Shown here one piece after another: positions 18,746 to 23,389 of a stretch of 45,207 nucleotides of DNA (position 1 is the first letter of the stretch; each line of letters opens with the position of its first letter). This DNA comes from Desulfobacterales bacterium. Its GTDB lineage: Bacteria > Desulfobacterota > DSM-4660 > Desulfatiglandales > Desulfatiglandaceae. Below the pieces are notes generated by a model. It made no database searches. It was not told the DNA's origin and saw nothing but the letters and a program-made list of their open reading frames with translations. Where the stretch lies: positions 1 to 45,207 of the forward strand of contig JALVMN010000076.1 of NCBI GenBank assembly GCA_027027005.1, in the 5' to 3' direction. The translations under genes were made by a program, and so were the position numbers.

Positions 18746-18912
18746 GGATTGTCTCCCTCACGTGTTATAAGTCTGTATATTGCCGATCTGAAAATCCTTG
18801 GCAAAATTATATCTCCTCCTAAATTTTCAATTAAATACCTCAACACCCCGCAGTTGTCATTACAAATGTGCTTCCCTCAGGAACATATAGGCCGGAGCGC
18901 CTCAATTTTGAA

Positions 18913-18942
18913 TGGACACTGGAGGGGTCCTTACCCTATAAT
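18913..18942 (+). promoter_or_regulatory. Promoter of rex
   Basis: TGGACA (18913-18918), 18-base spacer, perfect TATAAT (18937-18942). The start would be near 18949, giving a leader of about 28 bases before the rex ATG. No consensus Rex operator (TTGTGAA-like dyad) is seen. Confidence 0.7.
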
Positions 18943-18976
18943 CCCATCATTAGGTCAAGGTGCAGGGGGGTTAGCC

Positions 18977-19615
18977 ATGCCGAAACTCAAGAAAATACCG
19001 AAGCCCACCATCACCAGGCTCTCACACTATTACAGGCAACTGGAACTAATGAGTTTCGACGGCTACCGCATGGTCTCGTCGGAGAAACTGGCCTGGCTGT
19101 GTCAGGTCAATCCTGCCCAGGTGAGAAAAGATCTGGGATATTTCGGTGAATTTGGGATTCGCGGCGTGGGCTACGATGTCCAACAACTCCAAGCCCAGAT
19201 CAAGAAGATTCTGGCCGTCAACAGGGACTGGAACACTGCCATAGCAGGCCTCGGGCGCTTGGGCTCTGCACTCCTCCAACACAAGAACTTGCCTGAAAGG
19301 GGTTTTAAGTGTGTGGCGGTATTTGATGTTGACCCTAAAAAGGTGGGCACTGTAACTCCCACCGGTCTTGTCATAAAACACATCAACGAAATGAAAGAGG
19401 CCGTTGAGGAGCTTGACATAAAGATAGGGATCATCACAACCCCACCCGCTGAAGCCCAGAAGGTGGCCGACTACTTTTTTGATGCCGGCATCAATGCAAT
19501 CCTCAACTTCTCACCCACCAGGATCCAGGCCCCTGATTGTTGTCTGGTGGAAAACATAGATTTTACGGTAAGGCTAGATATATTGACTTACAAACTCACA
19601 CGGGGACTCAACTGA
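18977..19615 (+). CDS. rex: Redox-sensing transcriptional repressor Rex
   Basis: 212 residues, normal for Rex. The N-terminal winged helix begins PKPTITRLSHYYR and includes the segment VNPAQVRKDLGYFGEFG, which is near-invariant in the family. The C-terminal Rossmann domain has the NAD(H) loop AGLGRLGSALL and a domain-swapped terminal helix (VRLDILTYKLTRGL). Rex releases DNA when NADH rises and controls fermentation and anaerobic respiration genes. The start is chosen by GGGGGG and a promoter just upstream; the longer open frame to 18749 is not used. The selenoprotein candidate gene starts 56 bases downstream and may share the transcript. Confidence 0.95.
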   Translation: MPKLKKIPKPTITRLSHYYRQLELMSFDGYRMVSSEKLAWLCQVNPAQVRKDLGYFGEFGIRGVGYDVQQLQAQIKKILAVNRDWNTAIAGLGRLGSALLQHKNLPERGFKCVAVFDVDPKKVGTVTPTGLVIKHINEMKEAVEELDIKIGIITTPPAEAQKVADYFFDAGINAILNFSPTRIQAPDCCLVENIDFTVRLDILTYKLTRGLN

Positions 19616-19671
19616 AATCCAACATTTCTGTTTGGAGCAGATGCGGTTAATCCACGGGAAAGGAGGCATAG

Positions 19672-20442
19672 ATGGCATTCAATGGAAGAGCTTTTGGACT
19701 GATACTTGCCTCAATTGCCCTGCTGGGTCTGTGTGTAGCTGCTGAGAAGGCGTTGGGGCAAACCCAAGGAGTGCCAAAACTGCTCATAGAACACCTCTCT
19801 TACGACTTCAAAGAGGTCAAGGAAGGCCAGGTCCTGGAACGCAGCTTTGTATTACAAAACAGGGGCACTGCCCCTTTGCAAATAAAGAAAGTGCGGCCTG
19901 GTTGAGGCTGTGCTGTGGCCTCTTACGACAAGGTCATCCCCCCTGGAGGGGAGGGAAGGATCACACTAAAGGTCAACACAAAGGGCTATCAGGGCAAAAT
20001 TTCAAAGGGGGCCAGGGTCTATACCAATGATCCAAAAAAAGCTTTTTTTGTGTTGAGGCTCACTGCCTTTGTTAAGGTCCCGATTCATGTCTCTCCAAGA
20101 TATGTTTACCTGGTCGGCAGGTCTGATCAGGCCATAAGCAGGACGGTTTATATCGAGGCAAGGGAAGAAAGGCCCTTGGAACTCACCCCCATAGAGTTCA
20201 CCCTGAATGGAAAGGTGAATTTCACCACCCAGGCCTTGGTGCCAGGGCGAAAATACTCCGTGCACCTGGCCACCGCCCCAGGGTTCAGTGGCCCTTTGAG
20301 GGGTGTGTTGAAATTCAAGACCAATTACCCTGAAAAACCTGAAATCTTAATCAAGATTCGGGGAAGGATAAGGGCACCAAAGGGCTCTAGGCCAAAACCT
20401 CCCTCCCCACCTAAGTCTCCCAAGGTGGAAGGCGTCGAATGA
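19672..20442 (+). CDS. DUF1573-family exported protein, probable selenoprotein (UGA = Sec78)
   Basis: Two open stretches in the same frame are separated only by TGA at 19903-19905. Read through, they give 256 residues: a signal peptide (hydrophobic 8-23, cleavage near residue 30), a DUF1573-type immunoglobulin-like domain (about 35-130) and a second beta domain, then a Pro/Lys-rich tail. DUF1573 proteins have a conserved Cys-Gly-Cys after a KKV-type strand; here the read is KKVRPG[11 protein letters not shown], so UGA replaces the first Cys. The strand after it ([13 protein letters not shown]) continues the family pattern. AAAGGAGG precedes ATG. The 3' end overlaps rnhA by ATGA. The other reading, two fragments or a nonsense mutation, is less likely because the stop falls exactly at the motif Cys. 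The function of DUF1573 is not established. Confidence 0.82.
19915..19937 (+). promoter_or_regulatory. Candidate bacterial SECIS stem-loop
   Basis: Stem GTGGCCT/AGGTCAT (7 pairs including two G-U) with the 9-base loop CTTACGACA. The loop starts 17 bases after the UGA, inside the 16-37 base window expected for SelB-binding hairpins in bacteria. The loop has one G. A second hairpin (CCCC...GGGG) follows at about 19938. Confidence 0.6.
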
Positions 20443-20888
20443 ACAAGGAGGGAGAAAGTCCTGTGGAGATCTATGCCGACGGCGCATGCCAGGGCAATCC
20501 CGGGCCCGGAGGTTACGGCGCCATCCTTCGCTACCAGGGAAAGGTCAGAAAGATTTCTGGCTGCCACCCCAAGACCACTAATAATCGCATGGAGCTCATG
20601 GCGGTCATCAAGGCACTGGAGGCCCTCGAGCGGCCCAGCAAAGTGACGGTGTTCACCGACTCCAATTACGTCGTCAAAGGAATGACAGAGTGGCTGCCGG
20701 GTTGGCTCAGGCGAGGTTGGAAGAACAGTCAGAACAGGCCCGTATTGAATCGAGATCTCTGGGAAAGACTCGTCTCCCTTTCCAGCCGACACCAGGTTGA
20801 ATGGGTATGGGTGCGGGGACATTCAGGCCACCCTGAAAACGAGCAATGTGATCAACTGGCCAAAGAGGCCATCCGCAAATGTGTTTAA
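20439..20888 (+). CDS. rnhA: Ribonuclease HI
   Basis: 149 residues, standard length. The enzyme cuts RNA in RNA-DNA hybrids with Mg2+. The catalytic carboxylates are seen in [15 protein letters not shown] (Asp), [13 protein letters not shown] (Glu), [11 protein letters not shown] (Asp) and [12 protein letters not shown] (Asp), with the [10 protein letters not shown] loop carrying the active-site His. The ATG overlaps the stop of the selenoprotein gene (ATGA), so translation is probably coupled. Confidence 0.96.
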
Positions 20889-21961: not shown

Positions 21962-23389
21962 ATGAGACACCCAATCCAGCTCATTTCCCTACTATGGGCC
22001 TTGGCACTTTCTTTGGCAGGGACAAGCCTTGCGGCAGAAAAGATTCCTCCTTCTGCCACCACCCGGCTCACCTTGACCATCTACAACCAGGGCACTGCAC
22101 TGATAAACGAAGTGAGAGATGTCACCGTAAAGACGGCACGAAAGCCGTTTGAGCTGGTATTTGAAGGTGTGCCCACAACCATTGATGCCCCCTCTCTTCA
22201 GGTCAAATCCTCATCCGAAGGATTCAGGATCCTGGAGCAAAACTATGAATACGACCTCATCAACACCCAGAATCTCCTTAACAAATACCTGGGCAAAGAA
22301 CTTTTGGTGGCTGTCCCTGATCTCCGGGAAAGGGACAAGACCGTGTTCAAAAAGGCGGTGTTGATCGCCAATAATGACAGGCCCATATTCCGCATGGACG
22401 ACCAGATCTACCTGGGCTCCTATTCAGCCCTGCTGCTGGCCGAGATCCCAGAAGAGCTGAGAGCTCGGCCCGCGCTCGTCTGGCTGGTCAAAAACACCAC
22501 TGACCGCAAACAGACTTTAGAGGTCTCGTATCTGGCAGGAGGGTTTAGTTGGAAGGCCGACTACGTTCTCAAGGTATCTCCCGATGACACCCTTGGCACC
22601 CTTTCCGGCTGGGTCACCCTGGAGAATCAAAGCGGCATGAGCTTTAGCCAGGCCCACCTCAAGCTGGTGGCAGGCGACATACATCGGGCCGCACCCACGA
22701 GAGTAATGCCCAGGACCACACTACGGTTCGCCAAGCGCGGCATGGAGGAAAAAATCAAACAAGAGAGCTTTTTTGAGTACCACCTCTACACCGTTCCCAG
22801 GAAGGTGACCCTGAAAAACAACCAGACCAAACAGATAATGCTGCTTCAAACCCAGCCCTTTGCGGTCAAGAAACTCCTGAAAGTGACAAATAGCCGACCT
22901 TTCTATTTTGAGAACCCGTGGAGAGGCCCCAGTACAAAAGAGCACCCCACTGTCTACATTGAGTTTCAAAATTCCAAGGAAAACAGTCTGGGTGTCCCGC
23001 TGCCAAAGGGGATTGTAAGAGCCTACAAGAAGGCATCAGACGGATCCGTCCTCCTGATAGGAGAGGACAGGATCCCGCACACGCCTGAGGGAGAAAAGAT
23101 AAGCCTTACCATGGGCAAGGCCTTTGATATAACCGTGGAGCGCAAGCAGACCGATTACAGGAAGTGGGGTGAGAGGCTCTATGAGACCTCGTGGGAAATT
23201 CAGATCAGGAACGCCAAAGATATTCCCCAGGTGGTGGTTTTGGAAGAACATATCCCTGGAGGAGAGTGGCGGCTTACACTTAATCCCGATGGCTTTGAGA
23301 AAATCGCTTCCCACTGGATCAGGGCCACTGTGAAGGTGCCTGCAAAGGAGAAGAAAACCTTGGCTTACAGTGTGCAGATCAAGTACTAA
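21962..23389 (+). CDS. Exported DUF4139 domain protein
   Basis: 475 residues. The N-terminus is a signal peptide (MRHPIQLISLLWALALSLAGTSLAA). The remainder matches DUF4139: LTIYNQGTALINEVRDV near the start, YLAGGFSWKADYVL in the middle and LENQSGMSFSQAHLKLVAGDIHR, then a beta-rich C-terminal half ending with the run VPAKEKKTLAYSVQIKY. These proteins are probably periplasmic beta proteins; their role is not known. GGAGG precedes ATG. Its end overlaps the uvrA stop by 11 bases (convergent). Confidence 0.85.
   Translation: MRHPIQLISLLWALALSLAGTSLAAEKIPPSATTRLTLTIYNQGTALINEVRDVTVKTARKPFELVFEGVPTTIDAPSLQVKSSSEGFRILEQNYEYDLINTQNLLNKYLGKELLVAVPDLRERDKTVFKKAVLIANNDRPIFRMDDQIYLGSYSALLLAEIPEELRARPALVWLVKNTTDRKQTLEVSYLAGGFSWKADYVLKVSPDDTLGTLSGWVTLENQSGMSFSQAHLKLVAGDIHRAAPTRVMPRTTLRFAKRGMEEKIKQESFFEYHLYTVPRKVTLKNNQTKQIMLLQTQPFAVKKLLKVTNSRPFYFENPWRGPSTKEHPTVYIEFQNSKENSLGVPLPKGIVRAYKKASDGSVLLIGEDRIPHTPEGEKISLTMGKAFDITVERKQTDYRKWGERLYETSWEIQIRNAKDIPQVVVLEEHIPGGEWRLTLNPDGFEKIASHWIRATVKVPAKEKKTLAYSVQIKY

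Follow-up and report, generated by a model that had tools for sequence, protein, structure and literature searches.

The OS_HP2 selenoprotein family is said to go back to Zhang and Gladyshev in 2007 and to an Olavius symbiont. The 2008 Global Ocean Sampling paper equates OS_HP2 with pfam07610 in one of its tables and gives it the motif UxC (PMC2398784), and the selenoprotein listings of two reviews, of 2022 and 2026, carry DUF1573 with the motif UGC, crediting Zhang and Gladyshev 2007 (PMC9312934, PMC13188914). A DUF1573 protein is also named in the iron-stimulon table of B. thetaiotaomicron (PMC10434189). Our full-text literature search for DUF1573 found, in the passages that it retrieved, no function for the OS_HP2/DUF1573 family.

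The DUF1573 gene between rex and rnhA

The gene described here is located on a contig of 45,207 nucleotides, contig C76 of the Desulfobacterales genome G000, and the whole of this stretch is denoted the window (Table 1). Its reading frame is interrupted by a TGA codon. The product read through the TGA matches Pfam DUF1573 (PF07610) over residues 40-132 (E 6.6e-20), on both sides of the TGA, and NCBIfam NF041425, 'OS_HP2 family (seleno)protein', at 116.9 bits (cut-off 100; 106.7 bits in the six-frame search); its N-terminal domain is thus DUF1573 / NF041425. As a first-pass annotation of this DNA had it, the TGA takes the place of the first Cys of the DUF1573 CxC motif: it is residue 78 of U78-G79-C80, a UGC motif that lies within the pfam07610 domain, as the UxC / UGC definition of the family has it. 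The same annotation proposed a new selenoprotein family, no DUF1573 selenoprotein family being known to have been described, a proposal ruled out by the NF041425 match together with the OS_HP2/DUF1573 entries in the three listings cited above. The gene is a well-supported further member of the catalogued OS_HP2/DUF1573 family and not the founder of a new one. On sequence grounds we regard it as very nearly certain that it encodes a selenoprotein and belongs to the known OS_HP2 (NF041425, DUF1573) family.

With OS_HP2 as modelled by NF041425 the window protein shares the domain and the U-x-C motif, and we found no essential difference, the window copy being located in another genome, between rex and rnhA. 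Ordinary Cys-x-Cys DUF1573 proteins (PF07610) share the domain and the position of the motif; they differ in the Cys itself, present in 9 of the 91 homologues read, and in forming 2-5 of the 7 SECIS pairs (eight Cys forms), compared with 7 in the window. The likeness to the HYDIN/VesB/CFA65-like Ig domain (PF22544) and to PDB 2qsv is confined to an Ig-like scaffold. All 65 members of our protein alignment (A2, 65 rows of 215-300 aa out of 86, five genes open at the 3' end having been excluded beforehand) match NF041425 at E 0.001 or better. Across the phylum the model has matches in 161 of 395 sampled genomes, 45 of them over the cut-off, and in the window's own genome this gene is the only PF07610 match. 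In another genome a frame of 1477 aa (G019:C27:42511-43764) carries four consecutive DUF1573-like matches with no internal stop.

Table 1. Features at the locus, in window coordinates.
Feature	Position	Strand	Details
Redox-sensing repressor Rex, upstream gene	18749..19615	+	NF003993, 275 bits, cut-off 217
Ribosome-binding site AGGAGG	19661..19666	+	5 bases upstream of the ATG; from the sequence
Gene of the exported DUF1573 / OS_HP2 selenoprotein (predicted)	19672..20442	+	256 aa with UGA read as Sec; start ATG at 19672, terminating TGA at 20440-20442
UGA codon for predicted Sec78	19903..19905	+	in-frame TGA; of the 91 homologues read, 82 have TGA in this alignment column and 9 have Cys
Cys80 codon, predicted Sec partner in U-G-C motif	19909..19911	+	invariant in the 65-row alignment A2
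Predicted SECIS hairpin	19915..19937	+	helix 19915-19921 with 19931-19937, apical loop 19922-19930; 7/7 pairs in the window
Possible second hairpin	19938..19953	+	19938-19943 with 19948-19953, one mismatch; covers the IPPGGEG codons
Ribonuclease HI (rnhA), downstream gene	20439..20888	+	NF001236, 223.8 bits, cut-off 160

The ribosome site and the signal peptide, both judged good in the first-pass annotation, hold up, the former as AGGAGG and the latter as a hydrophobic, export-type N-terminus that forms a helix of residues 5-29 in an AlphaFold2 model of the 256-residue product and is followed by two beta domains (65 homologues as input; mean pLDDT 95.0, pTM 0.77). Among solved folds the model comes closest to Ig/ASH-type modules from the central apparatus of cilia and to 2qsv, an uncharacterised protein of Porphyromonas; the query TM-scores among the top 20 structure matches are low, 0.31-0.40 across both domains. 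The model thus suggests an Ig/ASH-like scaffold related to 2qsv and to ciliary HYDIN-type modules, a fold that does not discriminate between a redox role and metal binding. Upstream, the true start of Rex probably lies inside the open reading frame given in Table 1, where the Rex match begins at residue 79; downstream, the ATG of rnhA overlaps the stop codon of the DUF1573 gene (ATGA). Further along the window, 3' of a tRNA-Phe gene, a DUF4139-domain protein (E 3.2e-12) is encoded at 21962-23389.

Predicted selenocysteine at the in-frame UGA

By itself, an open stretch that resumes beyond a TGA is nothing uncommon. The window contains 26 TGA junctions with at least 60 aa on each side, two of them at this gene, a chance background that favours reading the TGA as a true stop, or as a sequencing or assembly error, with the gene broken or split into two genes. 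Against this reading stand the homologues. A PF07610 search of the window's order gave 114 matches in 69 of 85 genomes, 94 with exactly one internal TGA and 20 with no stop. We read the sequences of 91 (the 23 unread comprise 12 with and 11 without TGA), and 82 of these carry a single in-frame TGA while the remaining 9 have Cys in that column, the pattern for which the first-pass annotation had advised a search. The column of the TGA is identical in all 82, which places its position beyond chance. The motif reads UGC in 74 of the Sec homologues, USC in 5, UAC in 2 and UDC in 1. Among the best 80 of 255 relatives in a scan of named genomes, partly from the same contigs as the order set, the motif has TGA in 76 and Cys codons in 2, one of them from a Krumholzibacteriia metagenome-assembled genome (MAG), and 2 were left unplaced by the motif search. 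TGA is found at the motif in records of the cultured Desulfacinum hydrothermale, Desulfacinum infernum, Desulfobacter latus and Desulfobacter vibrioformis.

The first-pass annotation's statement that frame and domain continue past the TGA agrees with the PF07610 match and with purifying selection on the coding sequence beyond it, which further opposes a stop or an error. Over the 50 codons after the TGA, comparison of the window gene with the same-genus homologue L023 gave dN 0.08, dS 1.65 and dN/dS 0.05; further downstream dS was saturated (pN 0.29, pS 0.75), and for these 50 codons four comparisons at greater distance gave dN/dS 0.13 in two cases and saturation in two. Synonymous sites downstream of the TGA are constrained as well (see below), and selA, selB and tRNA-Sec are present in the genome. 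The shared TGA column, the synonymous constraint and the purifying selection together rule out sequencing error, true stop and pseudogene, readings that we consider extremely improbable, and the exported bacterial protein almost certainly has selenocysteine at the UGA. A tree of the 91 proteins requires 6 Sec/Cys changes, at least 4 of them forced by starred branches (a quick method, with several long branches and with direction not inferred).

The first-pass annotation had proposed to look for the selenocysteine machinery. The window's own genome encodes selA (606.5 bits), selB (375.6 bits) and tRNA-Sec (74.6 bits), and selD is represented only by a sub-cut-off fragment at a contig edge (97.5 bits, cut-off 125). 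With 8.9% contamination in this MAG assembly, individual machinery genes could derive from another organism. The same-genus genome has selB over the cut-off in addition to the UGA gene L023, and within the order 66 of the 85 genomes have a selB that exceeds the cut-off. In the phylum sample, 66 of the 71 genomes with a TGA-bearing match, among the matches listed, have selA, a co-occurrence that discriminates little because 355 of the 395 genomes have selA anyway, and that counts as a passed test rather than as strong evidence.

In all five selA-less genomes with a TGA-bearing match (G121, G347, G249, G160 and G456) tRNA-Sec exceeds the cut-off, and in four of them selB does so too, G249 having partial selB matches only. 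Two of them, G121, a single contig, and G347, are nearly complete and carry a TGA member, selB and tRNA-Sec, but at E 1e-40 or lower selA had no match in either. Seven genomes with a family match and no selA at E 1e-40 were examined, and four of them have tRNA-Sec. Matches are listed for four of the seven (G117, G152, G174 and G226), all without a stop; G088, G126 and G132 fall outside the matches listed and thus outside the Sec/Cys comparison. G152 and G174 have tRNA-Sec, indicating that a genome need not lack Sec to carry a non-UGA form.

Predicted hairpins downstream of the UGA

The stem-loop that the first-pass annotation had placed at SECIS distance, with its loop 17 bases after the UGA, agrees with the helix supported here, in which the first base of the apical loop, 19922, is the 17th after the UGA. 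Folded alone, the window hairpin is unexceptional (z -0.47, with 53 of 200 shuffles folding equally well), the window stretch compared with its codon-randomised versions gave z -1.52 (p 0.07), and an Rfam search at the hairpin site gave no match. Averaged over the 82 homologues, the minimum free energy is lowest directly after the UGA (mean z -1.2, the 13 other offsets ranging from -0.56 to 0.46). Since single-sequence folding is weak for the window, it was replaced by tests of synonymous sites and covariation.

Synonymous sites and helix pairs were counted in 77 Sec genes, leaving out five with insertions near the UGA (L016, L021, L034, L049 and L099). Relative to the codon usage of the same genes, synonymous third positions deviate chiefly in the first 17 codons after the UGA (+1 to +17), with background values at +18 and +19; isolated codons outside this block also deviate, for example -7 (G=36.3), +21 (G=26.9) and +23. 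Counted from the U of the UGA, the two strongest synonymous positions close the apical loop of the helix 13-19/29-35: base 18 is C in 74 of 77 genes (30 expected, G=121.8) and base 30 is G in 75 of 77 (37 expected, G=97.7).

The helix itself was examined with controls that all ignore the relatedness of the sequences, using 72 distinct sequences over 39 bases for the slide and shuffle test and 74 over 60 bases for codon randomisation. In the first, 82.9% of cells are paired, compared with 31.5-47.0% when the helix is slid, and none of 500 shuffles reaches this value. In the second, pairing is 83.4%, compared with 68.5% for codons drawn from the genes' usage (0/300) and 81.1% for codons permuted within amino acid and column (0/300). 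When any register was allowed, a strong stem was detected in 83% of the 82 order genes and in 82% of 45 additional named genes (45 of 46 extra sequences, L156 being left out as a duplicate of L155), compared with 29% and 23% after codon randomisation, respectively; the commonest of the registers, 48 and 47, are the two main ones. Together these data support a predicted SECIS hairpin just after the UGA.

Six Cys homologues from the order form 2-5 of the 7 SECIS pairs, and two further Cys homologues form 5 of 7. The extra named Sec genes have 1 to 7 pairs in the tested register, the value of 1 being that of Desulfobacter. In L163, L076 and L094 the stem is displaced by one register, pairing 14-20 with 27-33 or else 16-20 with 27-31, indicating that the hairpin drifts while the UGA stays. 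The four Desulfobacter genes (L175, L176, L179 and L187) form only 1 of 7 pairs in the usual register, yet a second hairpin is perfect in them, with 6/6 pairs.

This possible second hairpin directly follows the first. Its pairing in the helix counts is 92.1%, compared with 77.0% for codons drawn from the genes' usage (0/300) and 89.0% for codons permuted within amino acid and column (0/300); by the measure of all but one pair formed, 54 of 300 permutations match it. Two Cys homologues also form it (L181 with 6/6 pairs, L167 with 5/6), and in five distant Sec members no more than 3-4 of the 6 pairs are formed. The candidate is possibly driven by the conserved IPPGGEG peptide, from whose conservation it is not separable in every test.

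Possible role of the Sec-Gly-Cys pair

We surveyed the neighbours of 71 of the best 80 named loci (all except L125, L148, L156, L167, L168, L176, L179, L181 and L188), whose direct neighbours amount to 139 proteins from a simple ORF caller. No conserved partner shared across the 71 loci was found among these direct neighbours, which include 10 proteins with a Rex-type N-terminus, 10 RNase H proteins, 12 HAD hydrolases, 4 rhodaneses and 4 cation-efflux proteins. Within three genes, blastp clusters place rhodanese-like genes in 6 of the 71 loci, DsbD-TM-like genes in 5 and MauE-like genes in 3. The genes upstream in L123 encode DsbD-TM, rhodanese and MauE proteins, L124 is surrounded by genes for DsbD-TM, an SBF-family transporter, rhodanese, MauE and ArsR, the neighbours in L160 are thioredoxin and DsbD-TM, and in L128 DsbD-TM-like and rhodanese-like genes are clustered with the Sec-DUF1573 gene. 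Next to the window copy we found no thiol-carrier genes; its redox-related neighbour is the upstream gene of Rex. The clusters in L123, L124 and L128, some of them with MauE, the SBF transporter or ArsR, suggest a thiol- or arsenic-related module.

An exported protein with a Sec-Gly-Cys pair, and with thiol and sulfur neighbours in a few relatives, is most simply read as a periplasmic selenol/thiol redox protein. From motif and neighbourhood, the most likely role is that of a periplasmic selenol-based electron-transfer or thiol-exchange protein, a prediction to which we give about an even chance. The UGA is almost certainly decoded as Sec by the genome's own machinery, directed by the predicted SECIS hairpin described above. 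After export, the N-terminal Ig-like domain would display the Sec78-Gly79-Cys80 pair, which may cycle between the reduced selenol/thiol and the selenenylsulfide, and it could be fed by thiol carriers in the membrane, either CcdA/DsbD or MauE/DoxX in type. In its fullest form this would be an undescribed path from NADH-linked cytoplasmic thiols through a CcdA/DsbD-like or MauE/DoxX carrier to an Ig scaffold that bears Sec-Gly-Cys, in some cases joined by a periplasmic rhodanese, combined with a double-hairpin recoding signal in which the stem at the IPPGGEG codons assists the SECIS; we regard this whole as a doubtful, speculative extension.

A U-x-C pair can also chelate soft metals, and the main rival to a redox role is that the Sec coordinates a metal or metalloid, so that arsenic or a soft metal would be bound or trapped in the periplasm, instead of transferring electrons between thiol and disulfide. 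The L124 gene, beside an SBF-family transporter and an ArsR-type regulator, fits such a ligand, as do the genes, grouped with this transporter by blastp, that are located near the family gene in L119, L122, L127, L128 and L132, and the cation-efflux genes counted above. DsbD-TM-like and rhodanese-like genes are, however, also present in L123, L124 and L128, a metal-related neighbour is absent beside the window copy, and invariance in A2 is limited to N63, C78, C80 and G108, leaving no further conserved Cys or His as a ligand, so that metal binding appears possible yet rather unlikely. The nearest folds, the Ig/ASH ciliary modules and 2qsv, would suit a protein that is mainly a structural or assembly module of the Ig-like type, with Sec-Cys just a stabilising link within a loop, although the low TM-scores qualify this likeness. 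By a general argument Sec, a SECIS and the machinery would be costly for a purely structural link, and against it also stand the invariance of Cys80 in A2 and the excess of Sec over Cys forms; we consider a structural role improbable.

The standard-code ORF list truncates the gene, retaining just the part from 19915, and the locus is a clean, well-supported case of UGA recoding that such a list does not give in full. To the known family, common in this phylum, our analysis adds that Sec forms greatly outnumber Cys forms among the homologues read (82 and 9, respectively), that the SECIS has two main registers and that a few relatives have neighbours of the thiol type. The thiol-carrier neighbourhoods of these few relatives provide a testable hypothesis for the task that the Sec-Gly-Cys pair may perform.
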